Positions 23,311-64,000 of a stretch of 64,000 bases of DNA are shown piece by piece. Location: the NCBI GenBank assembly GCA_037447655.1, contig JBBHKE010003361.1, positions 140,806 through 204,805 of the forward strand, read 5' to 3'. A program made the translations under genes and the position numbers. The notes beneath the pieces are model-generated. The model was not told where the DNA came from. It searched no databases and worked only from the letters and a program-made list of their open reading frames with translations. The stretch's first letter is position 1; the number at the start of each line of letters is the position of its first letter. Source of the stretch: Zygnema cylindricum (Eukaryota > Streptophyta > Zygnematophyceae > Zygnematales > Zygnemataceae).

Positions 23311-23550
23311 ACTTTCAATTAGTCCTTTCCGTTTCCCACCTCTTCGGCTTGCTGCTCAGCTAAGTATAATGCAATATCCTCTTGGAGACCTTCATTTACT
23401 TCGACTGTTTTGAGATAACATTTATTTGTACAGTCTTTAGCGTAATGATCTGGACCTCCGCATTTGAAACAAGTGACTTTCTTTTTGAGTTTTATGCACT
23501 CTTTGTTGGATTGGCACGTGAATGCCGGTTCAATACGAGGTAGAATGTGA

Positions 23551-36700: not shown

Positions 36701-38163
36701 GGGAAAGGAGGAAGGAATTGCTCTGTAAAATACACAGACTTTTCTCTCTCTCTACGCCTCTCTCCTCTTCCTCTACATCTCTTACTCCCTATTCCCCTCT
36801 CCCTCTTCCTCCCCATTCCCCTCTTTTTCGCCCTCTTCCCTCCTCTCCCCCCTTCTTCCCTCCGCCTCCCTCATATTTATTTTGTGTTAATATTGTGTAA
36901 AAGTGTCTTAGTTTTTGAGTGCGGATGGATCTTTTGTTTCTTTTTTTGTTATCCATTTTTATTTTTTGCTCTTTTGTTGATTTTTGTGTATAGTTTTTTT
37001 TTTCTCGTTTGTTTTTTTATTTAACTCGACAGATTTCAATTGTAATTTTTAAAACCTAGAACAAATGTAGTACTGTACTAATATTTTTTTGTACTGTGCC
37101 TACAACAAGTTAGCACTTGGCCGGTTCGGTTTGGTTCAGTCCGGTTTGGATTTGTTCGGTTTGAATCGGGTCGGTTCTGTTCAGTTTGGTCCAGATCCGT
37201 TATGTACGGTGTGGTTCGGTTTGGTTCTTTTGGGTTCGGTTTCGTTCTGTTCTGTTCCGTCTGTCCGATTCTGTTTCTTTCGACACGGTCCGGTTTGTTT
37301 CCGTTCAGTCCGGTCCGGTTTGTTTCCGTTCAGTCCGGTCCGGTCCGGTGCCGTTCTTTTCCATTTGGGTCTGTCCGGTTTCCGATCAGATCGGACCAGT
37401 CCGGTTTAGTCTGTTCGGTTCGATTCTGTTTCATTCCGTTCCGTTCTGTTCAGTTTGGTTCCAATCGTTTCTGTTCGGTTTACTTTCCCTGTGACTCAAA
37501 ACGAACTATTTTGGTTTTAAAGCAGCATTGAAATCTGCAAAATGAAGTTGAGGGGTGGAGGGGGCGGAACCGAGCCAAAACTGGTGGGCGTAAGAACAGG
37601 CACACCTCACCCGATTTCCCCGGGCCATCCTCCCACGCTCACCCTTCTTAACTCTCACCCTCTCCACCCCCCCGGCACCGTGGGGTACACTCCCAATTAC
37701 CTGTACCTTTCTATACTTCTTGTACTGACTGAACAACCGTATGACAGCGAAATCCATCTCCCACTGCCTCTCCTCCCTCTCCCTATCAATCTCCCTCTCC
37801 CTGTTATCTTCTACCTCTCCGTCTACCTCTCCCTTCTCTCTCTCCGTCTTCCTCGCCCTCTCCCTCTCCCTCTCCCTCTTTCTCCGCTCTGAATCCATCT
37901 CTCTCTCCCCCTTCGCCGCCTCCTTTTTTAGGTTGAAACTCTGGTGGTACACTGCCTTCTAGAGGAGCCCACAAGTGAGTGTGGGGGGGGGTACCTGGAG
38001 GGAGAGATGGGAGGAGAGAGAGTCTCTCTCTTTCATGAACAAGTACAAGAGGTAAGAGTGTAGAAAATTCTTGGGGACCCCTTTCTCCTATTCCTCCCAT
38101 CTCTTGGTCCCTTTTTTTGCCCTTTCTGATGCAAAACACCCAAATGACAAAGCTCTCTCTTTT

Positions 38164-38235
<72 letters not shown>

Positions 38236-39693
38236 TTNNNNNNNNNNCGCCCTGTCCCCCTCTCCCCCCTCTCTCCCTCTCCTCCTCCCACTCAGACACT
38301 CGCTCTCCAGGATTGCCTTTACCGAAGTCGATATTCCGCAAAATGGATCCTCGTCGCCGATTTTGACGAGTATTTAGAATCAGTACCTCCCAAAAGCCTT
38401 CCTTTCCTTTTGTCCAAATACGAAATGAAATCGTGGCTTTCTTTTGGAGGCATTTGGTGGGTCGTAAATTTATGTGACGAGGACAGAAATGAGGAAATTT
38501 TGTCCGATGAAGAAAAACTAAATATTGAAAAACGAAGTATGGAAAAGTTGAATATGGAAAAATATGTATTCGATGTCGAGAGGATGGTGTACCACAAAGA
38601 CGGTTTCTTTTGTTCTCGAAACGAGAGTTTACGAAAAAGTATTTATAGTAGCGGGAGTAGAGGTAGTAGAGGAGTGTGTGTTTCGGGAAAAGACGATTGG
38701 CCGGGAAAAGTTTGTAAAAGACTTTTCGGAGAGTTATGTGACAAACATTTTGGTCGTCGAAAGTATTTTGCGAATCCTCGAAAGGTGAGACAGACTTCAT
38801 TTGTAAACTCTTTCCCCTTTTTTGTATCCTAGGAAATAAAATTGTTGGTTGCCGTATTTTGTGTATACTACACCAAATAAGGTTTTACCGGTTTTGTAAC
38901 AATTGAATAGAGTCGACAATATTGATGATTAGGCAAAAAATGGACTCTTTTTTTCCATTAAAAAGTGATGTAGTGTAACTTATATAGTGTGGGAGTAGAT
39001 ATTACTCTCGAATTTGAATGAATCTTTTTAAAGAATGATATTGGTAAGAGTTTGTGCTGATATGATTATTAATGATATTTTGTTGCTGTTGATTTTTATT
39101 TATTTTTTTCAAATTCAAAGGCGTTCCGACATATGAGTTTCTAGTCTTTTGATGATTTTGAAGGTCTAAGTTTTGAGATAATTTTCTTAAGGCCGTTTTT
39201 TTTTTTTTTGTCCGTTTGTGTTATTTGTGAAGTGGCAAGTTTTAGTTTTCGTGACGATTTTGAATGTTGAAATTTTGAGAAACCTGTCTGATGGCCGTCT
39301 TTTTTTTTTCATCAGTCTGTTTTTGTGACGTGACAACTTTTAGTGTATGAGAGATTTTGAATGTTACGGTTGTGAGAAAACTGTCTGAAGAATGTCTTTT
39401 TTTGTCGGTTTGTTTTTGTGACGTGACAGGTTGATTTACTCGCAGTTCACGAGGTTCTCGAGCCATCGGCCAATGGGATTGCATTAAATGCTCGAACACA
39501 ATTTCGATTAAATCACTATCGGTTTCTTGCGGCCGAAAAACTCGAGCCTTTTTTTTGTAATGAAACCATAGAAAACAAGGAGGCGGAGGGATGGCGAAGG
39601 GACGTGACGATTGCGAAGAGAGTGGAGATTGCGCGAAAATGTGGAGTATTTGGTATGGAGAGTGGGAGTAGTAGATTAATACAGTGTAGATAA
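33720..39693 (+). CDS. GT92-family (DUF23-like) glycosyltransferase, multi-exon, incomplete because of an assembly gap
   Basis: Likely exons: 33720-33788, 34852-35004, 35557-35687, 36249-about 36355, about 36484-36570, 37932-37974, 38311-38784, 39430-39693 (stop TAA). Exon 1 encodes a short hydrophobic signal anchor (GAALVLMMSATVAC), fitting a type II Golgi membrane enzyme. Exons 3-4 join to FILYSSYRLNSTLFAVVGLQ, typical of the family N-terminal region, and exon 6 gives VETLVVHCLLEEP. Exon 7 has KWILVADFDEYLE, the acidic metal-binding motif, and exon 8 has AVHEVLEPS and HYRF. GT92 enzymes transfer galactose or related sugars to glycans or cell-wall polymers. The segment between exons 6 and 7 that should hold the KNE/EW-type donor site is missing, and exon phases do not match there. 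Exons 2, 4 and 5 have uncertain edges. The last two exons are firm. Confidence 0.75.
33938..34400. repeat. Telomere-like TTAGGG repeats in GT92 intron 1
   Basis: Scattered GGTTAGG/TTAGGG variants from 33938 culminate in five or six consecutive TTAGGG units at about 34236-34285, then degrade again. Confidence 0.9.
34437..34780. repeat. Purine-rich and poly-T tracts with repeated TTTCTGGCGGGAATC
   Basis: GGGAGAGGGAG units are followed by AAGATGG plus poly-T units. TTTTCTGGCGGGAATC occurs twice (34660s, 34755s) and resembles TTTTCTGGAGGGAATT inside proposed exon 2 (34899). Confidence 0.8.
35985..36485. repeat. CT-rich then GA-rich simple repeats flanking GT92 exon 4
   Basis: CCCTCTCC-type pyrimidine repeats (35985-36240) precede exon 4, and GGGAGAGAGGGG purine repeats (36366-36480) follow it. 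The two tracts are complementary enough to fold back around the exon. Confidence 0.88.
37119..37480. repeat. GGTTC/GGTTT pentamer-like minisatellite in a GT92 intron
   Basis: About 360 bases of variants such as CGGTTCGGTTTGGTTC and CAGTCCGGTCCGG. The long Phe/Ser/Val frames in it are repeat artefacts. Confidence 0.92.
38150..38247. repeat. (CT)n microsatellite ending in an assembly gap
   Basis: A (TC)n run of about 35 units ends at ten N residues (38238-38247). The gap lies between GT92 exons 6 and 7. Confidence 0.96.
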
Positions 39694-44668: not shown

Positions 44669-46111
44669 TGTCGAGCGTGCCTGATGAACCTGAGGGAAGG
44701 GCCCAAAGCACGGCGTCTTCGGCATTGGAGTGCTGCAAATAAACCCCGAATGCGAATGCTTCCCATAATAATAATCATGCCCACTGCTACCCCCATCCCT
44801 CCCATAGACATGCATGCACAAATAGGAAGGGAAGAAGGACCGAGACTGGGAATGAAGGAATGGGAAGGCGAAAAGATCTCCCCTCCCCCTTTCTTTCCCC
44901 ATCGAACTGGGGAAACGGGGTTGGGTTTTTGGTTTATCGGGCCACTGGAAGTCTATAGCATTTGTTCCCTCAAAACCCACTGTTTCGATACAAGGAAGTT
45001 GAAGTTTTACTCCGGGAGGTTCACGCCAAAGCAAAAGAAACTACAAGCGAATACACAAATGCACTACCACGTTGACATATAGAAATAAATAGGAATGGCT
45101 GTTTCAGATTTAACAATATCACCTCGACCACAGAAATAAAATATAAGATGGAAGATATAAAGATGGCCCAGCAAGCTTAACATACCCCGGCAATTTTACG
45201 ATGACAATGAGAAAAGGCGATCTCTCTCCCAATGGTTGTGTAAATAGGTATGATACTCCTTCAACCCTCGGTGTCCGCAGCTCAGAACCGACTAGACTCT
45301 TCTCAGTTTCAAGCAGCGAAAAATCCAAAATTCACCCAAAGGGAAGATAATGCCAATTACCAGCCCGAACTATGATTCCCACAATGGACAGATCCAAAAC
45401 AAAGATGGCAATAGAGTCAAAACAAAACAATGATTATTCCAAAAGAAGGTTTGTTGGATTTTCTGAGGGTTTTCACACGAGACAGTAACGAAAAGCAACC
45501 TGTCTCCTTCGACCCTAAGTGCCTTATGCATCAAAGTTTGTCATCTTGCAAGTCTGAATGTCAAAGCTACGCTATAAACCAATGAGCGGCAAGAAAGTGT
45601 AATTGAACCGACACAAGACAAATTAATTCGTACTACACTCGGGGCAAAAAGTTCTGCTCCGGACTGCGGCTACATCCGCAGCCGGAAGTATTTATTCGGT
45701 CCTCAATTATAAGAAAAATCCTGAAAATGACACTAACTTGCCAGACTTTGACCTAACGTAATAAATGGACGAAAAGTCATCTGAGACTGAACTAAATTTA
45801 TACTGACGGCTACCAGCATAATCTAAATGAAAATCCGAAAAGTTACGTGGCATTCCACAATGTACCCCCGAAAGGGGCTGGTGGCAAATGGTTCCATGTA
45901 ACGGAATTGCAATCTTTGAGACGGTAGAACTTTGTCCTCCGGCATCCGTTTGGTGCCAAATAAAGTGCGTTCCGCTCACTTTAGGAAATACAAGGATCTC
46001 GTCCGGCTTGGTGCACTCACTCCTCCGTACTCTGAAGACCGTACAGAGTAAAAAAGGCCCGGAAATCCTTGGTGATATAAAGGTATGCCTAAAAAGCACT
46101 TGAGCTTGACA
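44669..46111 (-). repeat. LTR blocks A and B of the methyltransferase element (left end)
   Basis: A (44669-44943) recurs as A' at 46114-46389. B (44944-46111) recurs as B' at 56757-57926. At 46104-46121 the B/A' junction reads GCTTGACA-GC-TGTCGAGC, a near-perfect palindrome. The same half sites end the whole element at 44669 and 57926. Confidence 0.85.
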
Positions 46112-46429
46112 GCTGTCGAGCCTGCCTGATGAGTGTGAGGGAAGGGCCCAAAGCACGGCGTCGTCGGCATTGGAGTCCTGCAAATAAACCCCGAATGCGA
46201 ATGCTTCCTATAATAATGATCATGCCCATTGCTGCCCCCATCCCTCCCATAGACATGCATGCAGAAATAGGAGGGGAAGAAGGACCGGGACTAGGAATGA
46301 AGGAATGAGAAGGCGAAAAGATCTCCCCTCCCCCTTCCTTTCCCCATCGAACCGGGGAAAGGGGGTTGGGTTTTTTGTTTTATCGGGTCGGTGCTCCATT
46401 TCCCCCCCTCTTAGTCAACTATGACTAAG

Positions 46430-47780
46430 AAAAACAAATAATTTCCCGCCCAATTCACAGTTCCCGCAGAACCATGGACTAGGGGATGGAGAACGTGGTT
46501 CCCACGAGGTGGGGAAGACAAGCAGGGTGCCAACACTGACCGCACTGATTGCAAACCAAGATGTCGTGCTGCGGGGAGGGTAGGTTGCAGGATGATAAAC
46601 AGGAAAGAGGATCGGCAAAGTAAGTCAAGTGGAAAGTGGGCTCGTCTTCCAATCCTCGGAGGTGGCAAGGGGCCACATTGATATGATTCTCTTTAATTCT
46701 CCGACCATCTTTCCCTTCCAAAGTCAAAACTCCCTTGTTTGAAACTTCCACCACTTTCAAAATCACCCGCCCGGCAGAAATGTCAAGCGTATCCTTTTTC
46801 TGTTGCATTAGATACACAAAGTCTCCCGACATAAATCTTCGTTGTCGAGGCACATAATCTCCGCTCCGGCGCTGGGAATACCACAATTGATCCCGGTGTT
46901 GTGCCGCCTGTAAATTCCCCATGGCGAGAGGTATCTCTCGGTGGAAAATTTTGGCACGGTCGGCGATCAGTTTTTCGACGGTTCCCTTGTCATCCATTTT
47001 CGGGAGGACCACCGATTGGGCCGAGGCAGCCCCGGGCAGAATGGGATGTCGTCCGAATAAAATGAAGTAAGGACTATAGGAGGGGAGAGAAGCCTGTCGG
47101 CTGAATCTGTATCCCATGGCAATCCAAGGCACCTTTTTGTCCCATTCTCCTAAGTCCTCTTCAACTGCATATTTCCCTAGTGACCGCTTCACTGTCTGTA
47201 CGCACCTTTCGGCCAAACTGTCGGCTTGAGGGTGGTCGCGGCTGGTAAGTCGATGGGCGATGAGGCATTTCTCCAAAAGGTTGGTAAATTCTCCGGCGAA
47301 TTCCGATCTCTGGTTTGTCAGAACCTCTAATGGCGCTCCAAATTGTGACAGAACTCTGTGCAAGAAGGCGTCGGCAATGGACTTGGACTCCTTTCGGGGC
47401 AGAACCACAAGCTCTATCCATTTTGAGAAATGTTCAATCATGACCAGAACGAAACGATTCCCACGTCGGCTGGTCGGAAGAGGTCCCAAAAGATCCAAAG
47501 ACCACCGATAAAACATTCCCCGGATAGGAAGAGAATGAAGCTCAGTCCCGCCTTTTTTGTCAAAAGATGCCTTAACTCGATCGCAGGAAGAGCAAGTATA
47601 TACAATTCGGTTGACTTGGGCTCGCAACCCGTGCCACCTGTAACTAGGGAAGTAGTCTGCTTCTGTCCGAAATGTCCTTATTGCTTATGGAGATTGGTAA
47701 TCACAGTTTCTCGATCTGATGGAGGAGGAACCACTTTCTTTGTACCGTCTGACCATTTTCGGAGGAGAACGCCTCTGTCC
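46430..47780 (-). pseudogene. Integrase with a C-terminal PHD-type zinc finger
   Basis: The zinc-binding start is broken: GHFGQKQT near 47675 lies in a frame with a stop. The main frame 47627-46479 (382 residues) has the CC pair (YTCSSCDRVK), the core (SLDLLGPLPTSRRGNRF, SQFGAPLEVLTNQRSEF, DSLAERCVQTVKRSLG) and a C-terminal barrel (FMSGDFVYLMQQKKD to HINVAPCHLRG). It ends with a Cys/His cluster, CLSSC, CNQCGQCWHPACLP. After a frameshift near 46500 the final pair appears as WFCGNC. Together these give the C4-H-C3 spacing of a PHD finger, a reader of histone H3 tails in other proteins. The DDE Asp reads N in LTNQRSEF. Confidence 0.82.
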
Positions 47781-48078: not shown

Positions 48079-49545
48079 TCAGTCGACATTCCCATGGATT
48101 TCCCCTGCCCGGTGGATAATGCTAAAATCATATTCCTGCAGGATAAGCTCCCATCTGGCGAGTTTGCCGGTCAACTTACTATTTTCCATAATCCATTTTA
48201 GGGGTTGGTGGTCGGTAATCAGTGTGAAATGGACCCCGTACAAATAAGGTCTGAAATGGTGGATGGTCCAAACAGCTGCCAAAAGCTCCCCATGATAACT
48301 GCTATAATTCCCCTCAGCTCGGTTGTAGCTCCGGCTGGCGTAAGCCACCACATACTCGGCTCCGGCGTCGTCAACTTGAGCCTAAACCGCTCCCAATCCA
48401 AACCTACTCCAATCAGTGTAAAGAAGGAAAGGTCTCTGGTGATCACGCATCCGGAGCACTGGGTGCTACTTCAGGGCATCTTTCAAAAGCTGGAAAGCAT
48501 TCTGCTGTTCCTCGGCCCACAACAATTCTTGATCTTTCCACAATAGCTTTTTTAGGGGCTGGGCATGACTACTAAACTCAGGAATAAACCTGGGATAGTA
48601 CTTGGCCTGGCCGAGAAAGGTTTGCAAGGCGGAAATGTTCTACGGGGGAGGAAGAGCGTCAAAGGGCTGCAACCTTAACCATATGGGGACCCACTGTCCC
48701 GGGAGTCACCTCATGTCCGAGGTAAATATTTTTTTGCACCCCATAAATACCCTTACTCGGGTGACATTTCAAGCCCGCTGCTTGAAGGGCCCGGAGAACG
48801 ATTTGGATATGCTCCAGGTGTTCTTCAAAGGTCTTAGAGATATTATCACATTGTCGATGTAACACCGGGCACAATCGATTCCTCAGAGCGCTTCGTCCAT
48901 GGCCCGTTGGAACTTGGCAGGTGCATTCTTCAGTCTGATGGGCATATAAATCCACTCATAAAGTCTGGATTCGGTCCAGAATGTCGTTCTCTCCCGTTGT
49001 TTTGGTTCCATGGCAATATGGTGGAATCTATTCTTCATATCCAGTGTGGAGAAGATGGTGGCTCTGGCAAGAGAGTCGAAAATCTCTTCCGGAGTTGGCA
49101 TTGGATAATGGTCATGAATGGTGGCCGTGTTCAGCATGCGGTAATCCCCATACATTTGGAAATCTACAGTTTTCCCAGATGAATCCTTCTTAGGAGGGAG
49201 AACTGTGGGGTAAGCCAACCCATGGAGTCCTGTGCTTTCCTGAACCAACACGGCGTCTACCAAAGTTTAGACCTTTGCGGTGATAAACTCCTTCTCCTTA
49301 AAGCTGAGAGGATATTGTTTTTGCCAAACAGTTGCGGTTTTGTCAATCAAGGCAACACGAAAGGTGATTCCTTTGTATATTCCGACATCTGTTTCTGACC
49401 AGGAGAAAACCTGATTGTTCTTCGCCAAGAGTTCTGTTAGCTGTTCTTTCTGCTGAGGGTACAGCTGCTCCCCTAGAGTCGAGTCCATCTTTCCCGGCTC
49501 AACTACGTTCAGGCTTGCAGTAGTCTCCCCCACAGATGATGTCAA
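48079..49545 (-). pseudogene. Reverse transcriptase and RNase H of the methyltransferase element
   Basis: 49545-49267 is the RT lead-in. 49263-48883 has GDYRMLNTATIHDHYPMPTP, STLDMKNRFHHI and LKNAPAKFQRAMDEAL. A frameshift follows, then the catalytic stretch reads YIDN at about 48850-48861 where YIDD is needed for metal binding, and GHEVTPGTVG ends the RT thumb. RNase H at 48351-48079 shows AYASRSYNRAEGNYSSYHGE, ITDHQPLKWI and a C-terminal IIHRAGEIHGNVD. The order and motifs are Ty3/gypsy. It is inactive from the Asp loss and frameshifts. Confidence 0.88.
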
Positions 49546-49749
49546 ATTTTAGCCTAACCTGTGGATCCGCCTTTACTCCTCCAGATAATACTTTACTGCT
49601 GACAACTTCCGCTAAGCTGTCCCTTTTTGAACTACCGTTCCCCTCCACTGAAAGAACTCTTGGGTGTATTTTTCTCCTTTGTCTCCCCCCCTCAAGCTGC
49701 AAAGTGGCTCGCATGGACAACAATTTTGGAGCTTGAAGGTAACTTCTGC

Positions 49750-51582
49750 GGGAATCTGGAGAATGGAGACTAGAATATGCAAACGCGTGTTTTGTAACCC
49801 ATGTAATGGCATTCAAATCCATGCTTTGCCCGATTAAGCTACACCTTTGCAGGTCTAAAATACCTGGTGCGGCCGTGGTTCCCGGATGGAATTCCATGGC
49901 TTGTTCTCGTTCCGAAATTGATGGTGTCGTCCAAATTCCTGCCTTGCTGTCAAAAATCATCCCAGCTGCTCCTTTTCCGGTAGGTGTGACTGTGGGGAAA
50001 AGAGACCAACGTAGGGAGGGCTCGGCGTGGATATCCGGGTGTATTGGATCAGAAGAAAAGAGTACGATCCGGTTTCGTTACAGGTGTTGCCATTCTCCCC
50101 TCCCCAAGTATCTCCTACACGGAAATCTAAGGGTTGGGGGTCTGCTGTTCCAACAATTGCCGAAGGATTAGAAGCGGGATCATATTGGTCCAATATGCCC
50201 GGAGTGTGTGTGCTCGAGATCCCATCTGAGCAGCGTCAAAAACCAAGGGAGCTCCTAAAATTTGGGTTACCTGTTTCAAGCTCGCTGCAACCTCCTCCTG
50301 TCTATCATCATCGGGTGGACATTCTCCAGGATGTACCCCATTGGTGTGTTCTGGATCTGCTGAATCCAGGATATTAATGTAATCATCCGATAGAATGTGC
50401 CACTCCTGCGGTCCTGATGCCCTTTTCCTTGTCCTGCTAGGGAGTATCCCTGACAAGGCCTATTGAAAAGTAAGCTTTAGTAAGTCTTAGAAATTTGAGT
50501 CTAGGACTTAGAATATTTTTGGAATACCAACTGTTCAATATTTACCAAATTTAGTGTGGATTTTTTGTAGTATCTACACGAATTGATATCTTTAAGTTAA
50601 TTAGTGTGTAGGGCCACCAATGAATGTAGAGGTGATAAGAATCACCCGGATTTTTAGGGTATAGATATTTTTAGTGGACAATTCTGGTCCAAACACTTAG
50701 ATTTTTGTCAGTACAGTGTATGGTGAACCATGTACATACGTTTTAGATGTTTTCTAGATATTTTAGATGTTTTTTAGATCTTTTGAGTATTTAGTTCAAT
50801 TAGGATTGATCATTTCAATACAGAATATACATTCTACAGAAGAATTAAGGAAATGAGAGCACTGAGTGCTGTTTAAGGTATTTTATGCTCTATTGTCTCT
50901 AATTTGCTTGTAGTACATGTTTGTTTGGTTGAAAGACCTCTTTGGTTTGGAGTTACATATCTTACACTATAGATCTAGTCTTTTAAGCATTTCTCTTTGG
51001 GTTTTCTTTCGCTAACATATCTGATAATGGCTCAACTCCTATTGCAAGTGCTCCTATTAGCCCTAGTGCTCCACCTGCTCCAGCTAGTGCAAGTGTGACT
51101 CCTAGTGGGAGTGGATCACAGCCGAGTCTTAATGCCCATGACCTTCAACAAGGCCAACCCGCCACCACCAGATCTACTTTGCCCAGGCTAACTAAATGAG
51201 GTGCCATTATGTTTTCCACATTCTGAGGAAGACTCCGGTGAGCTTGGGAAATGGCAGACATTGGAAGCTGTTGAGGAAATAAACGGTGCAATTGATGGAG
51301 GCGGTGTTCGCTGACTGCTCGTGCCTCCAGTGAAATTTCGACTCCTGTATATGACTCCACCCGATATCCTGATTTCAAAACTGCTTCGAAGTCGGAACTA
51401 ATTCTTGAAAATAAAGATAAAATACGAAGTCCGGTGTCGGGAACTGTCAATGACACCACTTGTCGATTGAAGTGCTCGTTACTAGTCTTGGTTTGGAAAG
51501 CATCTGACCGGGTTGTCGAATCTGTTTTCGCTAATAATAAGGCCGAGAAAGCCTGATCTACTCCTTGCCGGAGGTTTGACAC
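49750..51582 (-). pseudogene. Cytosine-5 DNA methyltransferase domain inside the retrotransposon, split by a solo LTR
   Basis: 51582-51151 holds motif I (LRILSLFSRISSDFEAV; SAM-binding loop, normally with FxGxG), a GVEIS acidic motif and DLVVAGWPC, the catalytic Cys of motif IV. A copia solo LTR (50461-51150) follows. Across it the gene resumes at 50455 with QGYSLAGQGKGHQDRRSG (rest of motif IV), then ENV (motif VI, 50318-50326). After a frameshift near 50311, motif VIII appears (SRAHTLRAYWTN, about 50200-50235). The frame 49960-49750 matches motifs IX/X (PSISEREQAMEF, then RCSLIGQSMDLN). C5 methyltransferases transfer methyl from SAM to cytosine in DNA. The gene is dead: split, frameshifted, and motif I glycines lost. 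No other retrotransposon in the window has it. Confidence 0.87.
50461..51150 (+). mobile_element. Ty1/copia solo LTR inside the methyltransferase gene
   Basis: Its 690 bases align with the copia 5' LTR at 57971-58647, both starting TATTGAAAAGTAAGC and ending CAACA. A perfect 5-bp target duplication AGGCC lies at 50456-50460 and 51151-51155. Removing the LTR and one AGGCC restores continuity between the GWPC and QGYS codons. Solo LTRs arise by recombination between the two LTRs of an inserted element. Confidence 0.93.
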
Positions 51583-51599
51583 CTTTGATAATCTAGTGG

Positions 51600-53232
51600 T
51601 GTATCCTCTTTCCCACCGCTTGGAAATCGGAAATTGCTAGATGTCCTCCGCGATATCTGTTGAACTGTCAAACAGCTCCGCGGGAGAGGATGTAGAATAC
51701 ACTGGGTAACAACCACACACTGGAACATTGGTCTTCTCACGGTTCCGTAAATCCAAAGGGACCAAAACCTTGGTTCCTTCGGGATTTCTGGGGTCCCGAA
51801 CGGTACATTGCTTTTTCCAAACACTTAAACTCATATTCATCCGGGTCTAAGTAGCCATCCCCAACAAGATTTCAAATTGATTCCCTTTTACCACTAAGAA
51901 AGGAAGTTCAATTTTCACCTTCTGTCCAGCATCATCGGAGAATTCGATGTTCATTGCTTTGATGATTCCATGGACTGACTGACTGCCGCTTGTTACCGTG
52001 CTTAAGCAGATGTTACTCGGGCAGATTTGGGGTCTGAGTTCTTCAGGCATTTTTTGCAAAGCGGAAGTGGTAATAAGGTTGGGAAGTGCTTCGATGTCTA
52101 CCACAGCGCCCTGGTACCAGCCGTACCTGTTAAGTTTGAAATTGCTTGTTCGGTTCAGAATGAGAGCCACGAACAAGGTTTTGTAGTCCCAATCCACCAG
52201 AGGGGTCTTACGATCTGAAGACAAATATACCGCCGTGGGTAGAATTACCTTGTCGACTTTGTCTTTTTCGGAATGGATCGCTTCACCCAGGGCCTGAATG
52301 AGGATTCTTCTGGCAGATTATGGGAGGAGGCAAGGGTCTTCACATGGGTCAGGGCATACGGCATAAGGTGCTGGACTAGCATGATAGCCGGCTTGGAGGA
52401 ATGGAGTGGAGCTCTCGAGGATGACATCTGCGGATCTGGTACCTGGTCTTGTTCGTTGCCCCTCCTTGTCATCACTCTCAGTATCGGAATCGGGCACTAG
52501 TGGAGTTCGGGGTGCTTCCTCGTTCGGGCGTTCCGCCAAGAATCGCTCAAACCAATCTTGATCGCTCAGTTTGACCTCTTCCAGTGATTTCTCCTTCTGG
52601 TAATTTTCGAAACCCAGGGGCAGTTTAGATTTAGGAGGAGGAGGAGGAGGATGAGTGGGCTTGATTCCGAGGCCTATGTCACTTTTTACCATCACTGCCC
52701 GGGGCGTGAAAGATAAAGGCCCGGTGGTTTTCAGGTTGTGATCTTTCTGGCTCATTTTCTGCCTGGCTCTCCTGTGATCCGACGTTGAGAAGCGCAGTTG
52801 TCTACGACCATCTCCCACTCCCACATTCCACGCTCCCTGCTGGAAGTTGCCTGCATGGAAGGCATTTGGGGGTTCTAAATCCCAGCCCATTAAATCATCG
52901 TCGTTAGCACCGGCTGTGCTTTGAAGTTCAAGCTCCGCTAGATTTTGTAGTAACTCCTGCTTCTGTCTTTGGAGTCGTTGCGCTGCTGTTAAGGGAGCAG
53001 GCCAGTAAGACGATCCCAAACGGAGTGCAGCCGATTCCGCAGCCATGGCGGCCATCTGCTGACTCTGTTGTTGGATGATGATCTCCGGTGTAAGTCTTGT
53101 TCGAGCAACCGATGCGCGTTCCGGAGTTTTGGGTGTAGGCAGTTCTGGGTGCCCCCAACGGTAAAGAAGTTGTAGGGGAAGAGGGTTAATGGCAGTTTCT
53201 CCTCCCCCCATGAACAGAGCGAATTGCATCAT
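51600..53232 (-). pseudogene. Gag-Pol linker and aspartyl protease remnant
   Basis: The frame 53232-52318 (304 residues) is a Gln/Ala-rich helical and Pro-rich linker with no known domain. After a short break, 52224-51847 reads GAVVDIEALPNLITTSAL followed by beta-rich sequence ending FLVVKGNQFEILLGMAT, the layout of a retropepsin (active-site strand, flap, LLG-type C-terminal motif). The active site has DIEA where the family has D-T/S-G-A, so it would be inactive. The frame after the stop (51840-51600) continues towards the methyltransferase. Confidence 0.72.
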
Positions 53233-56200
53233 TTCTTTTGGAATTCCGTTCCTCCAAAAACATTGCCCCTCCTTGTGCCCTATATAACCACAGGCGTCGC
53301 ACTAGTGGCCCTCCGTGGTATACTTGCTCCGGATCTCGTTGGAGATCTGGGCGTCGTCAAACTTTGGCATTTTAATTTGCCGCAGTTGAAACTGCGACAT
53401 TTCCGAAGTTTCGCTCCGAGGAGTGGGGTGATAATTGTCCTTTGTGACCTGTGTTTTCTCCCCCCCCACTGCTCCTTTGAGCCGTTCTTGCTACTTCCTC
53501 TAGCTTCTTTCTGAACGCTCTACTTCCCATTCCTTCAGCTTGAGGGCCTGCTCCGGTTTGAGTTTCCTGCTGCAGCGTTTCCATCCATGTCCCGGTTGTT
53601 GACAGTTTAGGCAATTGTACAGAATTACCCGATCGTTTGCCCCCATTGCAGGTTCGGGCTCGCTGTGCGCAGCTTGCTTCCCTTTAAGCTTCCGCAAAGC
53701 TTGAAGTTCCGCTTGTTCTTCTCCACTCAAGGAAGTTTCCTCGGCGAGTCCTCCAAAATTCGCTCTGGCCTTGCCGGTTACGGCCTTCTCCCTTGCCTCA
53801 CTGTGAACAAAGTGGTCTTATAACTTCATTGCCACCAGTGAGATGTCCTTCGAAGAAGGATTTATGTCTTGGATTGCTTGTCCGGCAATCCAATTGTCCA
53901 AGGCAGTCTGCCATGTCGGACCGAAGGAGTTACGGACGGCTATAAAATACTTTGTGGCCATTGCAGGAAGGTCAATGGTTGACAGCTTGGTTTTCTAGCA
54001 AAGGTTGGAAAGACGGTTGAAAAGAGTCTGGGGAGTCTCGTTTTTCAAACATCAGAAATTCCGTGATTTCCTTGATTGCAGATTCATTCCTCGCAGTGTA
54101 GAGGAGTCTCCAGATATTAAGAAGGGTAGTGCAAGGGTTGGGGTTGGCCACCATGCCAGTTGCTGCTCGGGCTTCCTAGATAGCCTACAGCTGGTTAACA
54201 TAGGCACTTCCTTGCGCCTGAAGTTTCATGTCCTGTGTAAATGTAGGAGTCACAAGGGTCGCCGCGGCCGCGGCCAAGTCAGCCTCAGCTTGCAAAACAG
54301 CGATATCAAGGGTTGGATCGGAGATTTTGATGCTTGGAGCCATCAAAAGAAGTTGACGCTCCTTGTAATCTGCAAACGCCCCTCCCGACAAGTAGTTGAC
54401 CATCATGGGGAATAGAGTGGTTTCGAAGTCATCGAGAACGGCTCCTCCCCTGAATTTATTGATTTCTGATTGGGTGAACGATTTCCACAACAACTCGAAA
54501 TCCGAGAAAGCGATCCCCAAGCTGTCTCCCGTAAAGATCCGGATATCCCCCATCTCTTTTTCTTCCTCTGCAGAGTTCGTGAAATGGGAAGAGGAAGGCT
54601 CGGTGGGGCTGACAAACTGAGCGGGTGAGATGACCCTAATATCCTCTTCCTCATGATCTGAACCAGATCCCTCTCCGCTAGACGATGCGGTTCCTTGTGG
54701 CGTGGATCCCCCTCCCACTGAGGAAGTTCCAGCGCCGGAAAAGATGGTGGGCTGTAGAATGTCCCCCACTACTCCTCTATGTCCAGCAGAATATTGGGGA
54801 TCTCGGAGAACAGTTGCCACCGATGGGATGTGGAGACGGGGCTTGTTCATACGTTTTTGGTGGATTGTTGGTGGAGGAGACGGCAAAGGAGATGAAGACG
54901 AAGACAGCCATGCCCTTGCGGAAAAAGGTGTCTGTCTCCTGTTTCGCCTCCTAGATGTCTCAGGAGGTGAAATCCGGAGCTTGAGGAAGGGGAGTTTCGG
55001 TGAGGCGGGAAAAAGGCGAGTAAGTCGAATTTGTTGGGTAACACTAGCGGACTAGGCGACCCACGGACAGCTGCAGCAGGAGAAATGGATGGTGAAGGAG
55101 AGGGATCAGGACAGTTCCGGGGTTCTTTCGCGGGTTCTGGGGAGTGAGCGGAATAAGGCGGAAATGCAGAGGAGGAGGGCTCTGAGGATTTTCTGGGAGA
55201 AGTGTGAGGAGGTGTGGGAGTCCTCAAGGGGATGTGAATCCTCTCATCAGGTCGTAACTCCACTAAAGCCTCCACAGCCGTAGACACCTCCACCAAGACA
55301 AAGGCACTCTCACCCCGAATAGCCGAAGCGTTTCCAGAAGGTAGATCTGCACCCAAACCCTCCACATTAGGTCTTGTGTTATCCTCCCCTTTCCGCGGAA
55401 AGAGAGCCTCTTGGCTTTGCTCGAAAGAAGGCATTTCAGGTTGAATGTTGGCGAGAGGGGAAGTCCCCGCTGCTGGGGTAGGAGGAATCTTCCCGCTAAG
55501 AATCCCACTTGTCCGGCGCCGAGCTTCCATAATGAGCGTCAATTCCTGTTCCCATGCCTGTAGCCTCTATTCCTCTAACAATCTACCGTGATGGGTCCGG
55601 CCCCCGCCGTAGCTTTTCCCTAGGATTTTAGAACCTCCACTAGTTCGTTGGCTTTTTCCACTACTTTGGTAAGATCCGCTATCTCAATTCCCGGAATTTC
55701 AGGATCATTAGGTCTGGTACGCCACCATCCTTCGGACAAATCTTGGGGTCCCGTACCGGGAACCTCGGGATCGGTAGGTCTTCATCTCCAGAGCCCTTCG
55801 GCAGGGCAGACACGAGTTGTGTTGGGAGCAGATCTCTCGGTGGAGGGTGGAATAGGAGTCGGGGACATCCTCCTTAGGGAAAGGTGGAAATCTCCCCTTG
55901 CTGTCACGATGATCAAACTTCTTTCCCCTCACTAGATTTCGCGCGCCCCTCTCGATACCCCCTTCTCCTCTACGAGGCCGAGAAGAGGTACCTTCCCGGG
56001 TGGGTCGACTGGCTGCGGTGTCCTGAGAGGAAGATGGGGGAGGGCGAGAATAGAGAGCTCTCTGAGACCTGTCTTGCACGGACTCTGAAGAGCTCCTCTC
56101 CGAAGAACTGCTCAAAATCTCCACCACCCCTCCGACAGGTCTAACCACTCTAACTCGATCTGTCCGCGCCACTCTCTGTACCAACTCCTTCTTCACCTTG

Positions 56201-56625
56201 AGCTCATGGAGGTCGTGAAGGGCAAGGAGTTCCTTACGCCTAGGTCGGCGTGTGTCCGTCAAAACAGCGGGGTCAATCTGGATATCGGCGCGGGGAATCT
56301 TGGATCGGGTATGTAGCCCCTACTCGAGAAGGGGGCCCACATGGGGCTCCTTTTGCGCTTGCCTCTTTGGCCGAGCCTTGGGAAACTCCCTATTCCTCTC
56401 CTCAGCCTGGACCCTGGCGGCTTCTACCAAAGAAGGGTAATGTTCAAGAGTCAGACTGGGAGGTGGAGGAGGGGGAGAACCACCAGACGGTTCCTTGGCT
56501 GGCGATCCAAAAACAGTCTCCATGGGCTCCGACTCCTCGAACCTAAAAGATTCTCCTTCCGGCATGGGCCTCTTCGGTTGACCTTGCTCTCTGGATCCGT
56601 TATCCAGAGTCTCTCCTCCCCCCAT
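53233..56625 (-). pseudogene. Gag region of the methyltransferase element
   Basis: The first frame (56625-56320, then same frame past a stop to 55708) opens MGGGETLDNGSREQ and is Pro/Ser/Arg-rich. Further frames at 55542-54847 and 54886-54185 give a Pro/Ser linker and a Gag-like alpha-helical region (FSDFELLWKSFTQSEIN). Near 53650-53600 a zinc knuckle CLNCQQPGHGWKRC is complete. A second, CDACGYIGHKEGQC, lies at about 53265-53305, in frame with the protein that follows. Two CCHC knuckles identify nucleocapsid. Stops and frameshifts separate the pieces. Confidence 0.78.
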
Positions 56626-56741
56626 GATGACAGAGGTGTAGGGGGAAGGAGTGGTGAATAAAACTAAAGCTTACTTCCAAAAAGAGGGCTCCCAAAGTAA
56701 AAGCTCATATCCCCTCTAATCGAAGGAGACAGGTGGCTTTT

Positions 56742-57926
56742 CAGTACTGTGCTTTATCCACTAGAAGTCTATAGCATTTGTTCCCTCAAAAGCCACTGTT
56801 TCGATACGAAGAAGTTGCAATGTTACTCCGGGAGGTTCACGCCAAAGCAAAAGAAACTACAAGCGAATACACAAATGCACTACCACGTGGACATATAGAA
56901 ATAAATAGGAATGGCTGTTTCACATTTAACAATATCACCTTGACCACAAAAATAAAATATAAGATGGAAGATATAAAGATGGCCGAGCAAGCTTAACATA
57001 CCTCGCCAATTTACGATGACAAGGAGAAAAGGCGATCTCTCTCCCAATGGTTGTGTAAATAGGTATGATACTCCTTCAACCCTCGACGTCCGCAGCTCGG
57101 AACTGAATAGACTCTTCTCAGTTTCAAACAGCGAAAAATCCGAAAATCACCCAAAGGGAAGATGATGCCAATTACCTGCCCTAACTATGATTCCCTCAAT
57201 AAAAAGATCCAAAACAAAGATGGCAATAGAGTCAAAACAAAACAAAGGTTCTTCCAAAAGAAGGTTTGTTGGATTTTCTGAGGGTTTTCACAGGAGACAG
57301 TACTGAAAAGCAACTGTCTCCTTCGACCCCAAGTGCCTTATACATCAAAGTTTGTCTTATTACCAGTGCGAAACTCAAAGCTACGCTATTAACCGATGAG
57401 CGGCAAGCAAGTGTAATTGAACTGACACAAGACAAATTAATCCGTACTACACTCGGGGCAAAAAGTTCTGCTTCGGACTGCGGCTAGATCCGCGGCCGGA
57501 ATTATTTATTCGGTCCACCATTATAAGACAAAATCCTGAAAATGACACTAACTTGCCAGACTTTGACCTATCGTAATAAATGGACGAAAAGTCAGCTGAG
57601 ACTGAACTAAATCTCTACTAACGTCTACCAGCATTATCTAAATGCAAATCCGAAAAGTTATGTGGCAATCCACAATGTACCCCCCAAAGGGGCTGGTGGC
57701 AAATGGTTCCCTATAACAGAATTGCAACCTTTGAGACGGTAGAACTTTGTCATCCGGCCTCCGTTTGGCGCTAAATAAAGTGCGTTCCGCTCAGTTTAGA
57801 AAATACAAGGATCTCATCCGACTTGGTGCACTCACACCTCCGTAGGCTGAAGACCGTACAGAGTAAAAAGGGCCCGGAAATCCTTGGTGACATAAAGGTA
57901 TGCCTGAAAAGCACCTGAGCTTGACA
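56742..57926 (-). repeat. LTR block B' and adjoining primer-site candidate (right end)
   Basis: B' aligns with 44944-46111 with a few percent differences. Directly inside it (56742-56760) the element strand reads TGGATAAAGCACAGTACTG, starting with the TGG expected where a tRNA CCA end pairs; I cannot name the tRNA. Confidence 0.75.
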
Positions 57927-57970
57927 AGATATTTGTAACAAACAACGTTTATTGTTCGTAGTCACAAAAA
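57927..57970. repeat. Satellite fragment between the two retrotransposons
   Basis: 44 bases (TTTGTAACAAACAACGTTT and following) match the A monomer of the array at 62087-64000. The gypsy and copia elements therefore both sit in, or at the edge of, the same satellite array. Confidence 0.93.
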
Positions 57971-58647
57971 TATTGAAAAGTAAGCTTTGGTTAGTCTTAG
58001 AAATTTGAGTCTAAGGCTTATAATATTTTTGGAATACCAACTGTTCAATATTTAGTGTGGAATTTTTGTAGTATCTACACGAATAGTTATCTTTAAGTAA
58101 ATTAGTGTGTAGGGCCGCCAATGAATTTGGACGTGATAAGAATCACCCGGATTTTTAGGGTATAGATATTGTTAATGGACAATTTTGGTCCAAACACTTA
58201 GATTTTTGTTAGTAGGTTGTCAGGTGTACCTTGTAAATACGTTTTAGATATTTTGAGGATCTTTAGAGTATTTAATTCAATTAGGAATGATCAGTTTGAT
58301 ACAGAATGTACATTCTACACAGAGTTTAAGGAAATAAGAGCACTAAGTGCAGTTAAAGGTGTTTTGTGCTCTATTGTCTTTGATTTGCTTGTAGTACATA
58401 TTTGTTTCGTTGAAAGACCTCTTTCTTTTGTAGTTATATATCGTACAGTATTGATCTAGTGTGATTGGTGTTCCTCTTTGGGTTTGCTTCCCTAACATAT
58501 CTGATAATGGCTTAGCTCCTGCTGGAAGTGCTCATATTAGCCCTAGTGAACACCTGCTCCTCCAATGACGAATATCCTAGCTGGTGCAAGTGTGACTCCT
58601 AGTGGGAGTGGATCACAGCCGAGTCTAAATGCCCATGACCTACAACA
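57971..58647 (+). repeat. Copia 5' LTR
   Basis: 677 bases, ends TATTGAAAAG and CAACA. The right boundary is fixed by the primer site that follows and by the solo LTR at 50461-51150. Confidence 0.92.
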
Positions 58648-59345: not shown

Positions 59346-62086
59346 ATATAAGAGAGCGAAAGCCACAGGAAATTTTCACTTTGGATGGGACGAAAGTCGT
59401 GTTCCTTCTCAATTAGGTGGTCAACCTACTACTCTCTTCAACGAACTTAAAGAGGAGGACGTAAGCAGCTTTCCCACCAACAGCGAAAAGAAATACTTTG
59501 CGATGGCACAAGCAACGGAAGGCGTGGAGGAAAACGAATGGATAATGGACTCCAATGCATCTGCACATGTGCCACAATCGCCATCTGTTAAAGAGTATTC
59601 AATCTATTTCACCCATCAAAATTTATTTTAGTGATGATACCTTTGTTGAGTCAAAAGGAAAAGGGAGGGTATCACTTATGTTGAACATAGACTTCGCTTT
59701 TAAAAGAAACCTTTTCTCTACGTTAGTAGTAGAAAAGAAAGGTTTTAAAACTATTTCTGAGAATGGAAAGAAAACGGTGAGTAAGAATGGGAAAATAGTT
59801 ACAGAGGGGTTTGCTGGAGGAAACAATTTGTATCAGTTGAGTTTTGCAAATGATAATGACAATGATGTTATGTACTCAAGTGTTATCAGTGATTGTGATT
59901 TAAGGCATAAAAGTTTAGGACATGTGAATTATGATAGATTAGAAAAGATGGTAAATCAAAAAATGGTGGAAGGTGTAAAAATTAGTCAAAAACCAGCATC
60001 AAATGTATGTGATGGTTGTGCAATGGGAAAAATTCATAAGTTGCCTTTCCCTTCGCAAACTGATCATAGATGTAGTAGGGTGCTAGAACTAATTTATTCA
60101 GAGGTATAGGGGCCATCTAGGTATCCATTTGTGGGAGGTGCTAAGTTTATGTTTACCTTTACTGATGACTATAGTAGATTTACTACAGTTTATTTTTTGA
60201 AAAGTAAGGATGAAGTCTTTTCAAAATTTAAGGAGTATAAGGCTTGCGTTGAGAATCTACATGAGAGAAAGATAACATGATTCAGATCTGATAATGGAGG
60301 GGAGTACATTTCTAATGAGTTTGTAGAATTCCTAAAATTGCATGGAATCTCACGTGAACTAACGGTTCGTTATTTTCCGAAACAAAACGGTGTTTCAGAA
60401 AGGATGAATAGGACCCTATCAGAGTGTTATAGGAGAATGATGGCTGATACAGACATAGATTTCAAATTTTGGGCGGAGGCTATGCATTGTGCAGCTTATG
60501 TAAGAAACAGGCTAGAAACAAGGGTAGTTAAACATAAAAATCCCTACGAAATGTCGACAGTACACAAACCAGATGTAAGTCACTTCAACGTTTTTGGAAG
60601 TAAGGTATTCTTGCTAGATAATGATCCACAAAAATGGAAATTAGAGCAAAAAGGCATACCAGGGATATTTTTAGGGTATGATGATCATGCCAAGGGTTAT
60701 AAAGTATATAACATTAAAAGAAATAGAGTTGTGGTAGCCAAAAACATCATAGTGAAGGATGAGGGAAAAATAATAGATGTATTTAGTCAGCGTAGCGATA
60801 AAAAGAAAATTCGAAGTGTTGATTATATCTTTTTAGAGGAAAATCCCATGTTTTTCAAGAAAAATATAGAAAATGCATCTACATTAGCTCAAAGTGACTT
60901 GCAATCATCTTATCCACCAGAAACAGGAACTGTTGTGCCCCAAAGAGTTGCAGACTCTCCTCTACCATAAGCCGAAACTGAATCACAAGAAGAATCACAT
61001 GTATCAAGGAGGAGGACCCAACCATCTATATCAGCGACAAAATTTCCAGGTTGAGTTAGGCGAAGTGTACGTCTCAGGGGAGAAAGTGCAGCCTTTGCTC
61101 ACTCAGCACACACAGAAGAGCCTCTAACATTGACAGAAGCTTTTTGGAGTAATGAAAGGGAACACTAGGTCGAAGCGGTTAATGAAGAAATGAAGTCCGT
61201 CATGGAGGCCCAAACATGGGATCTGGTGGAACTTTTCCGAAAGAAAAGTTATTGGAAGCAAATGGGTGTTTAAATTAAAATTGAACTCAGATAATACCAT
61301 AGATAGATATAAGTCTTGCTTAGTTGCTAGGGGATATAATCAAAAGGAGGGGATAGATTATGAAGAAACTTTTTCACCGGTTGTAAGTTATCCATCTGTC
61401 CGCATCTTACTTACATTAGCTGCCATAAAGGATTTTGATATCCACCAAATGGATGTCAAAACTGCATTTTTGCATGGTGATTTAGATGAGGTCATTTGTA
61501 TGAAGCAGCCAAAGGGTTATGAGGAAGCAGGAAAAGAAAATCTTGTGTGCAGACTTTTCAAATCTTTGTATGGCCTAAAACAGGCCCGTAGGCAATGGAA
61601 CCGAAAGTTAGATGAGTTTTTGACTGGATTAGGATTTACTAAATCTAGCTCAGATCATTCAATATATGTGATGTGTGGTGATAATCTTGATGAGGTGATA
61701 TTCATTGCTATGTATGTTGATGATTTGCAGCTAATTAGTAGGAACAAAAAAAAAATTGCTAGACTAAAACACGCTTTTAATTCAAAATTTGAAATGAAGG
61801 ATTTGGGTGAGGCTAAATACATTCTTGGAATACAAGTTGAAAGAGATTGAGAAAAGAAAATCATTAGGCTAACTCAAAATGAAGCGATAGGAAACATGTT
61901 GGAAAAATTTGGCTTGGCTGATGCCAAAGGTTGTGCAAGTCCTATGGAGTATAAGCAAAAACTTGAAGGAATGGAGCATGAGTTTGGAGTCATAATAGAT
62001 GAGGAACTCTGTGCAGAAGAGCAAAAATTTATGTCCCAAGTACCCTACAGACAAATAGTAGGAAGTCTGATTTACTTCATGAATAG
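59346..62086 (+). pseudogene. Copia pol: protease, integrase, reverse transcriptase, partial RNase H
   Basis: Protease near 59540: EWIMDSNASAHV, with Asn where the DSG glycine belongs. Integrase: HKSLGHVNYDRLEKM with CDGCAMGKIHKLPF (zinc domain), a TAG after YSEV and a TGA after ERKIT, then FRSDNGGEYI and the KQNGVSERMNRTL core (60338-60970). RT (61266-61850): QMDVKTAFLHGDL, SLYGLKQARRQW and FIAMYVDDLQLI with the YVDD metal site intact. RNase H starts with PYRQIVGSLIYFMNS and is cut off. Integrase before RT is diagnostic of Ty1/copia. Confidence 0.92.
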
Positions 62087-64000
62087 TTAAAAAAAACATA
62101 TTTGAGTTTGCGCAAACAAAGACATTTGTTACAAACAACGTTTATTGTCCGCGGTCACAAAAAGAGGTAAAATAAACTTCGAATCATGTTTATAACACAA
62201 GTTTGTGTTTGCGCTAACAACAATAGTGGTAACAAACACTTTATATTGTTAACGCTTCCAAAAATAGTTAAAAAAAACCCTAAACCATGTTTCTAACACA
62301 TATTTGAGTTTGCCCTAACAAAGATATTTGTAACAAACAACGTTTATTATTTGCGGTCACAAAAAGAGGTAAAATAAACTCCGAACCATGTTTATAAAAC
62401 AAGTTTGTGTTTGTGCAAACAACAATCGTGGTAAAAATCTATTTATATTGTTCACGCTCAACAAATAGTTAAAAAACACCCTAAACCATGTTTCTAACAC
62501 AAATTTGAGTTTGCCCTAACAAAGATATTTGTAACAAACAACGTTTATTGTTCGCGGTCACAAAAACAAGTAAAATAAACTCTGAACCATGTTTATAACA
62601 CAAGTTTGTGTTTGCGCTAAGAACAATAATGGTAACAAACACTTTATATTGTTAAAGCTCACAGAAATATTTAAAAAAAACCCTAAACCATGTTTCTAAC
62701 ACAGATTAGAGTTTGCACTAACAAAGGAATTTGTAACAAACAACGTTTATTGTTCGAGGTCACAAAAAGAGGTAAAATAAACTCCGAACCATGTTTATAA
62801 CACAAGTAGTGTTTGAGCTAAGAACAATAATGGTAACAAACACTTTATATTGTTAAAGCTCACAAAAACAGTTAAAAAAAATCCAAAAAGATGTTCCTAA
62901 CACAAAATTGAGTTTGCACTTAGAAAGATATTTGTAACAAACAATGTTTATTTTCACGGTCACAAAAAGAGGTAAAATAAACTCCGAACCATGTTTATAA
63001 CACAAGTTTGTGTTTGCACTAACAACAATAGTTGTAACAAACTTTTTATATTACTAACGCTCACAAAAATTGTTTAAAATAACCTAAACCATGTTTCTAA
63101 CACAAATTTGAATTTGCCCTAAAAAAGATATTTGTAACAAACAACGTTTATTGTTTAGAGTCACAAAAAGAGGTAAAATAAACTTTGAATCATGTTTATA
63201 ACACAAGTTTGTGTTTGCGCTAACAACAACAGTAGTAATAAACACTTTATATTGTTGACGCTCACAAAAATAGTTAAAAAAAATCCTTAACCATGTTTTT
63301 TACACAAATTTGAGTTTGCGATAACAAAGATATTTGTAACAAAAAAGGTTTATTGTTCGCAGTCACAAATAGAGGTAAAATATTCCTCGAACCATGTTTA
63401 TAACACAAGTTTGTTTTTGCGCTAACAACAACAGTAGTAATAAACACTTTATATTGTTAACGCTCACAAAAATAGTTAAAAAAAATCCTTAACCATGTTT
63501 TTTACACAAATTTGAGTTTGCGCTAACAAAGATATTTGTAACAAACAACGTTTATTGTTCGCAGTCACAAAAAGAGGTAAAATAAACTCCGAACGATGTT
63601 TATAAAACAAGTTTGTGTTTGCGCTAACAACATTAGTGCTATCAAACACTTTATATTGTTAGCGCTCACAAAAATAAAAAACACTAAACCATGTTTCTAA
63701 CACAAATTTGAGTTTGTGCTAACAAAGATATTTGTACAAACAACGTTTATTGTTCGCGGTCACAAAAAGAGGTAAAATACTCTCCGACCATGTTTATAAC
63801 ACAAGTAATTGTTTGGGCTAAAAACAACAATGATAACAAACACTTTAAATTATTAACGCTAACAAAAATAATTACAAAAAAAAAACCAAAAATCATGTTT
63901 CTAACACAAATTTGAGTTTGTGCTAACAAATATATGTGTAACAAACAATGTTTATTGTTCGGGGTCACATAAAGAAGTAAAATAAATTATGAACCATGTT
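62087..64000. repeat. Satellite array of 200-bp dimers (two 100-bp monomer types)
   Basis: About nine and a half dimers run to the window edge. Monomer A contains TAACAAACAACGTTTATTG and AGAGGTAAAATAAACTCCG. Monomer B contains GGTAACAAACACTTTATAT and TAGTTAAAAAAAACCCTAAA. They share the blocks CCATGTTT-TAACACAA and GTTTGCGCTAACAA. A motifs recur near 62126, 62330, 62524, 62727, 62928, 63127, 63330, 63528, 63726 and 63928, a mean spacing of 200. Copies differ by scattered substitutions. No coding capacity. This is an alternating two-monomer order typical of tandem satellite DNA. Confidence 0.95.

Follow-up and report, generated by a model that had tools for sequence, protein, structure and literature searches.

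Does the window analysed here, a stretch of 64,000 nucleotides of Zygnema cylindricum DNA, hold a retrotransposon with a cytosine-5 DNA methyltransferase as a regular part of its pol region and, if so, which kind of methyltransferase is it, how might it be produced and what might it do for the element?

The element in the window

A Ty3/gypsy element with a Dnmt3-type C5 methyltransferase, now decayed, extends from 57926 to 44669 on the minus strand. Its components follow in the order repeat A, gag, protease, UAG, methyltransferase, reverse transcriptase (RT), RNase H, integrase, half a PHD finger, polypurine tract, and repeats B, A and B:

56757-57926, minus: repeat A, 5' copy (A1); element start TGTCAAGC at 57926
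57336-57342, minus: TATA-like box TATAAGG within A; at A 583-585 in 5/5 copies compared
57298-57326, minus: putative RNA 5' end, complementary to the primer site
56720-56749, minus: putative primer binding site (self-priming), adjoining A1
52318-56300, minus: gag region (limits approximate), frames broken; from the open reading frame list and motifs by eye
51847-52317, minus: retropepsin-like protease, degenerate; active site VDIEA (VDTGA in an open copy)
51637-51639, minus: in-frame UAG, then CAA UUU, between protease and methyltransferase; putative leaky stop
51145-51636, minus: methyltransferase piece 1; lead-in QFPISKRW, motif I LSLFSRIS to motif IV VDLVVAGWPC
50461-51150, plus: Ty1/copia fragment (LTR and inferred gag start), directly after the catalytic Cys codon; 82.7% identity to 57971-58647
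50127-50459, minus: methyltransferase piece 2; motif VIII GSRAHTLRAYWTN, with motif VI ENV in a neighbouring frame
49499-50077, minus: methyltransferase piece 3; target recognition region, motif IX/X LIGQSMDLNAI, and linker; matched in other copies
48883-49266, minus: RT; Pfam RVT_1 1.5e-10; catalytic box just beyond reads YIDN
48079-48381, minus: RNase H; Pfam RT_RNaseH 1.6e-28
46602-47684, minus: integrase (rve); Pfam rve 1.1e-09; second Asp replaced (TNQRSEF)
46479-46601, minus: PHD finger, first half; Pfam PHD E=0.0012, below cut-off
46454-46474, minus: last PHD Cys pair (WFCGNC), in a different frame; continuous in copy L024
46398-46412, minus: polypurine tract AAGAGGGGGGGAAAT; G-run here in 9/9 copies printed
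46114-46387, minus: repeat B1 (U3 side); 92-93% identity to the outer B, K2P 0.074
46105-46120, minus: B1/A2 junction CTCGACA-GC-TGTCAAG, a near-palindrome; proposed integrase site
44941-46111, minus: repeat A, 3' copy (A2); 92% identity to A1 over 1171 columns, K2P 0.079
44669-44940, minus: repeat B2; element end CTCGACA at 44669

Two CCHC zinc knuckles were recognised by eye in the gag region, at 53817-53500 and from 53301, the former segment being matched in 21/26 of the genomic stretches described below. The protease of the open copy matches Asp_protease_2 with E=2e-4, just under the Pfam cut-off. With YIDN at the RT catalytic box, TNQ for TDQ in the integrase and broken reading frames, the window copy is dead.

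Among the fetched loci, the spacing of the copia fragment inside the methyltransferase is common only to the window and L002 (C905). Compared with window positions 49500-52700, L002 shows 98-99% identity in the protease and in pieces 1 and 2, and 68% in piece 3; it is either a duplicated segment or the other allele of the window copy. Elsewhere in the window, a tandem array of an approximately 101-nt repeat is present downstream of a copia RT (61951-64000), and a piece of the same repeat, seen by eye, borders the element at 57927-57970. The window also contains a separate gypsy element with a Tf2-1-like SH3 domain and gag (19798-24884), unrelated to the methyltransferase element, and a fragment of a family 92 glycosyltransferase gene, probably a host gene (38056-38832).

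Identity of the methyltransferase

An earlier note on this DNA had claimed C5 methyltransferase motifs lying in order and on the same strand as pol, a claim that is borne out. The catalytic domain of human DNMT3A, compared with the 64-kb window by tblastn, found its best match at 51429-51148 (E 0.004) and its second at 50249-50181 (E 1.3), on the same strand and collinear. Across 300 dinucleotide shuffles, neither the best match (30.0 bits vs 28.5 for the top shuffle) nor the collinear chain (17.9 vs 13.5) was ever equalled. In a phmmer search of the 1641 window ORFs with DNMT3A, the top three hits all fell within 51636-50130 (E 0.075, 1.9 and 4.8), while the best window match of M.HhaI, at 50458-50318 (E 0.002), covers the region after motif IV. 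The reversed DNMT3A query had no match in the methyltransferase region among the matches listed.

Taken alone, the window copy is weak by profile. Against solved structures, piece 1 placed DNMT3C weakly first (E 0.004), followed by three unrelated chains (0.2-0.6) and DNMT3B chains at E of at least 0.65; pieces 2 and 3, each searched alone, found no methyltransferase there. Searched against proteins, piece 1 had no match with E of 1 or below among the 107 candidates scored, and no relative turned up in the viral contigs searched. A comparison with methyltransferase profiles, suggested earlier as a check, likewise yielded no Pfam DNA_methylase match for the window pieces, searched separately, but a significant one in relatives: the methyltransferase segment of an open copy matches with E=8.2e-13, above the curated cut-off.

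Nine open copies, aligned over the domain, contain motifs I, IV (PCQGYS), VI (ENV), VIII and IX in canonical order. The nearest solved structure to the open-copy profile is DNMT3A (4.9e-12), followed at a distance by HhaI (4.2e-4) and plant DRM (0.003), and when a predicted model, itself poor (mean pLDDT 42.5), was compared by fold, DNMT3 structures made up all of the best 50 PDB matches shown. On these profile and fold comparisons with solved structures the methyltransferase is assigned to the DNMT3 type. Identity as a DRM enzyme was rejected: DRM has motifs VI-X before I-IV, in contrast to the order I, IV, VI, VIII, IX seen here.

Copies elsewhere in the genome

The genome searched comprises 352.8 Mb in 2689 contigs. 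Methyltransferase piece 1 found at least 152 matches (best 150 of 1191 candidates scored) and a second, divergent methyltransferase query at least 150 (best 150 of 1221 scored); joined, the two indicate at least 235 genomic places. Domain order was examined in 26 fetched stretches of 7.6 to 10 kb, 15 taken by fixed rank (10, 20, ... 150; L009-L023) and 11 (L024-L034) picked mostly for long open frames. Eight short loci, among them the window itself and two already covered by longer stretches, bring the set of fetched loci to 34, all carrying the methyltransferase since they were selected for it.

The methyltransferase had been placed between protease and RT from the window alone, with the proposal to see whether other copies always keep it there. 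That placement held: the protease is upstream in 25/26 stretches and RT downstream in 25/26, and the exceptions are stretches lacking the neighbour itself (protease not found in L032; no RT, RNase H or integrase match in L018). For the fixed-rank subset the corresponding figures are 15/15 and 14/15. RT, RNase H and integrase are collinear in 24/26 stretches, the others being L018 and L033, where the best RNase H match is out of order. The arrangement protease-RT-RNase H-integrase, with an rve integrase, is that of Ty3/gypsy elements. In L024, methyltransferase, RT, RNase H, integrase and PHD finger share a single open frame of 1520 amino acids (Pfam DNA_methylase 8.2e-13, RVT_1 1.3e-28, RT_RNaseH 6.5e-36, rve 6.1e-12, PHD 0.0044), with gag and protease in two separate frames upstream of this Pol frame. 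Table rows for a second place show an open frame of 1525 amino acids that holds both methyltransferase and RNase H segments. Motif IV PCQGYS is intact in 20/29 aligned copies and the RT box YIDD in 21/25. The window element thus belongs to a large Ty3/gypsy family with a Dnmt3-type methyltransferase at the start of Pol.

To our knowledge, ordinary gypsy elements lack a methyltransferase domain. That it entered one copy here as a private insertion, from a host gene or a foreign source, might be read from the broken frames around it in the window, but is rejected by the domain order in the fetched stretches, its position being kept in 25/26 on either side, and is made wholly improbable by the 235 or more places listed, the frame continuous with RT in L024 and the purifying selection described below.

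Viewed from the RNase H side, 79 of the 150 matches listed have a listed methyltransferase match no more than 3.2 kb upstream and 15 have one at 3.2-12 kb; the other 56 have none. At the one of these 56 places inspected (C370), unrelated AT-rich DNA takes up the stretch expected to hold the methyltransferase. A clean methyltransferase-less relative was not found among the 150 listed RNase H matches, with one place inspected. One RNase H match (C961:71248-71547) falls within an open frame of 5743 amino acids, perhaps only a run of N.

Selection on the methyltransferase

Among ten open copies, median dN/dS for the methyltransferase is 0.092 (motifs I-IV) and 0.10 (VI-X); values for the remainder of Pol are 0.037 for RT, 0.036 for RNase H, 0.044 for integrase, 0.247 for the PHD finger and 0.368 for the linker. 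With 30 copies the methyltransferase medians are 0.125 (I-IV) and 0.152 (VI-X), pairs saturated at synonymous sites being excluded throughout (e.g. 139/435 for motifs I-IV in the 30-copy set). Distances between copies in the methyltransferase and in RT are correlated (r=0.71, 300 pairs). The dN/dS values and this correlation together indicate that the methyltransferase is kept by purifying selection and moves with the element.

A conserved UAG upstream of the methyltransferase

Directly before QFPISKRW stands a UAG, in 29/34 loci by script and in 31/34 when two offset alignments are included, the 34 taking in two repeated loci and the window. At the remaining loci the position is occupied once by UAA and twice by the sense codon TTG. 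The bases following the UAG are CAA UUC or CAA UUU in 28/29 loci, which may be compared to UAG CAA UUA, well known from tobamoviruses as a leaky stop. Across 16 aligned copies, synonymous change amounts to 17% over the first nine codons (152/874 same-residue pairs) vs 36% over the next 23 (611/1693); the residue make-up at that spot may account for part of the low figure. A small hairpin is predicted after the UAG, with little covariation.

Because the UAG is conserved and the codons after it vary less at synonymous sites, we infer readthrough. Occasional readthrough of UAG CAA UUC would probably give rise to Pol, so that the methyltransferase would be made along with RT and integrase, in small amounts. 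A variant code with TAG as Gln was also considered and rejected, the Pol frame of L024 having no stop in the 1520 codons that follow the single conserved TAG. The UAG might instead simply end the protease frame, with Pol translated from an internal start or from a spliced transcript. The L024 Pol frame has a Met as its residue 19 and two copies have the sense codon TTG, both in favour of such an arrangement, but we consider it unlikely given that QFPISKRW is conserved after the UAG, in codons less variable than later ones, and that UAG, rather than UAA or UGA, is found in 31/34 loci.

Priming of reverse transcription

The 30-nt stretch directly after A1 is complementary to A at approximately 600-630, and the complementary stretch of A begins 16 nt downstream of the first T in TATAAGG. 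Placed solely from this TATA-like box, the RNA start would lie within A1, some 20-30 nt after TATAAGG. The predicted duplex between primer site and RNA 5' end has an energy of -45.5 kcal/mol in the window and of -45.5 to -58.5 kcal/mol in 5/5 copies, a figure that may be compared to -19.8 kcal/mol for the best duplex elsewhere in A of C746.

Tf1/sushi LTR elements are self-primed, the RNA 5' end being complementary to a primer site after the 5' repeat. In the Zygnema element, too, the RNA 5' end probably folds onto the site after A1 and thereby serves as primer for reverse transcription, as in Tf1. The complementarity of this putative self-primer, approximately 30 nt, would exceed the approximately 11 nt of Tf1.

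Terminal repeats and insertion

The element had been thought to lie inside one set of LTR blocks. Repeats do flank it, but their arrangement is A-coding-B-A-B, with no simple LTR pair. Among the eight elements viewed on both sides, all five blocks are present in the window, C746, C1214 and C886; C902 and C1527 also have all five, one of them truncated, and A1 was not found at the expected place in C2415 and C1508. The outer ends read TGTCAAG ... CTCGACA, with the TG...CA termini characteristic, like a short target duplication of fixed length, of Ty3/gypsy LTR retrotransposons. Four of the seven elements tested are bordered by 4-bp target duplications (C746 TCCT, C1214 GAAT, C886 ATCA and the solo A-B unit of L027 TTCC), and none was found at the other three (the window element, C902 and C1527). 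Divergence in the window copy is about equal for the A pair and the B pair (K2P 0.079 vs 0.074).

Two junctions merit description. The inner one, between B and A, reads exactly CTCGACA-GC-TGTCAAG in 6 of 12 printed copies and is altered in 6. At the outer one, between A2 and B2, A, which ends in AAGCAC at the primer-site boundary, is joined to the base after the polypurine G-run (AAATTGG) in 5 of 10 printed copies. The join is exact in C1508 and the L027 solo unit and slightly altered in C1214, which has one extra G, in the second element of L014 and in C886. The remaining five differ, C746 being odd, the window deleted, C902 and C1527 truncated, and C2415 right on the B side only.

Two further structures were seen. 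The solo A-B unit of L027 (75-1537, minus), with its TTCC duplication, looks as if derived by recombination between two A repeats. In L010 (C1527), at 9440-9510, A2 breaks off at the 3' end of the putative self-primer (CAGTACTG), where it is fused to B2, perhaps as the product of a failed strand transfer.

In terms of reverse transcription, the LTR would be B-A, from polypurine tract to primer site. The A2/B2 junctions are such as a two-LTR circle, so defined, would give on being opened at B/A, with some joins imprecise, and insertion from circles is thereby suggested. In such a scheme, for which we judge the chances about even, linear cDNA would close to a circle with an A/B junction, and integrase would open the near-palindromic B-GC-A and insert the element with a 4-bp duplication, giving A-coding-B-A-B without a tyrosine recombinase. 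In established retroviral biology, integration from circles is regarded as a dead end.

DIRS replication with a tyrosine recombinase was rejected, the integrase being of the rve type and target duplications being present in 4/7 elements. A closer competitor is that A-coding-B-A-B is copied from RNA in each cycle, as in DIRS/PAT, so that the A2/B2 junction is inherited and no new LTR-LTR circle junction arises. The repeat layout is indeed that of DIRS and five A2/B2 junctions are closely alike (CAC/AAATTGG type). We nevertheless think such inheritance rather improbable, since the junction sits at the boundaries of primer site and polypurine tract and differs among copies (C746, C1214 and the window), and since rve integrase and 4-bp duplications (4/7) are unlike the features of tyrosine-recombinase elements.

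The PHD-like finger

The earlier note had regarded the methyltransferase placement, together with a PHD finger, as unusual. The finger is present, but it follows the integrase rather than standing beside the methyltransferase, and in the window it is frameshifted. A PHD match was obtained in 18/26 stretches, with scores below the Pfam cut-off. Chromoviruses have a chromodomain after the integrase; the present elements resemble them in having a domain of chromatin-reader type there, and differ in that it is a PHD-like C4HC3 finger, with no chromodomain. Steering of integration to a histone mark would be our first suggestion for its role, although we hold it with rather less than even confidence.

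Relation to known elements

Methyltransferase-bearing retrotransposons are a rare kind, first described in 2018 by de Mendoza et al. (PMC5890265). That the class might already be known was rightly suspected, as it matches KnitGypsy-Dnmt3 of Klebsormidium nitens, described in the main text of that paper as a gypsy element with Dnmt3 in Pol, DIRS-like repeats and purifying selection. Its methyltransferase is reported there as not rearranged, with dN/dS below 0.2, and its copies as fewer than those of the Symbiodinium elements; no activity of the enzyme was detected in yeast, a result that its authors deem inconclusive (PMC5890265). Likened by these described features, KnitGypsy-Dnmt3 and the Zygnema family share a Dnmt3-type methyltransferase in gypsy Pol, the layout A-coding-B-A-B and purifying selection. 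The main text of PMC5890265 makes no mention of PHD, readthrough, circular forms, self-priming or target site duplication.

The same paper describes dinoflagellate retrotransposons with a C5 methyltransferase, SymbioDIRS-Dnmt3 and SymbioLINE-Dnmt. From its main text, the former also resembles the present elements in its A-coding-B-A-B repeats and differs in having a tyrosine recombinase, in place of the rve integrase and 4-bp duplications found here; the latter shares the C5 methyltransferase and differs in its LINE structure (PMC5890265). As far as the available text of each goes, PMC6338049, which cites the 2018 paper, reports that land plants lack such transposons, and PMC12344493 returns to such elements, with LTR Copia and DIRS as the types named.

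In a limited literature search, including the main text of PMC5890265, no publication was found that describes the UAG, the PHD finger, self-priming or the circle junction for such elements. As sequence features, the conserved UAG, the PHD-like finger, the 30-nt match, the 4-bp duplications and the A/B junction suggest readthrough, self-priming and circle insertion.

Possible role of the enzyme

We give a probability of roughly 0.65 to the overall reading of a Dnmt3 gypsy family in which Pol would be made by readthrough, reverse transcription would be self-primed, insertion would proceed from circles, cDNA would be methylated and the PHD finger would direct targeting. As to the enzyme, the most likely substrate would be CG on new cDNA or on the circle before insertion, which might let the element be taken for host DNA or might determine the chromatin state of the new copy; we regard this as an evenly balanced proposition.

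The methyltransferase could instead restrain the element, through self-silencing that spares the host, or could methylate RNA, rather than shielding element DNA. In the main text of their 2018 paper, de Mendoza et al. discuss self-limitation as an option, as well as RNA methylation in the case of the LINE type (PMC5890265). Such roles seem unlikely for the Zygnema enzyme, whose position in Pol puts it with the cDNA and which, among solved structures, comes closest to de novo DNA methyltransferases. Returning to methylation of the element's own DNA, its most specific form would be a self-primed gypsy element that inserts from closed two-LTR circles cut at the internal near-palindrome, a de novo methyltransferase made by readthrough having first marked the circle. 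The odds are against this full combination, which we offer tentatively.

Methyltransferase-bearing retrotransposons make the silencing mark of the host a tool of the transposon. The present family, large, diverse, under selection and with open copies, provides material for asking what the enzyme's role is. Insertion from circles cut at the LTR near-palindrome would account for DIRS-like repeats in an element that has no tyrosine recombinase, and the repeat ends thus offer a testable account, integration from circles, of how such repeats may arise in a gypsy element.
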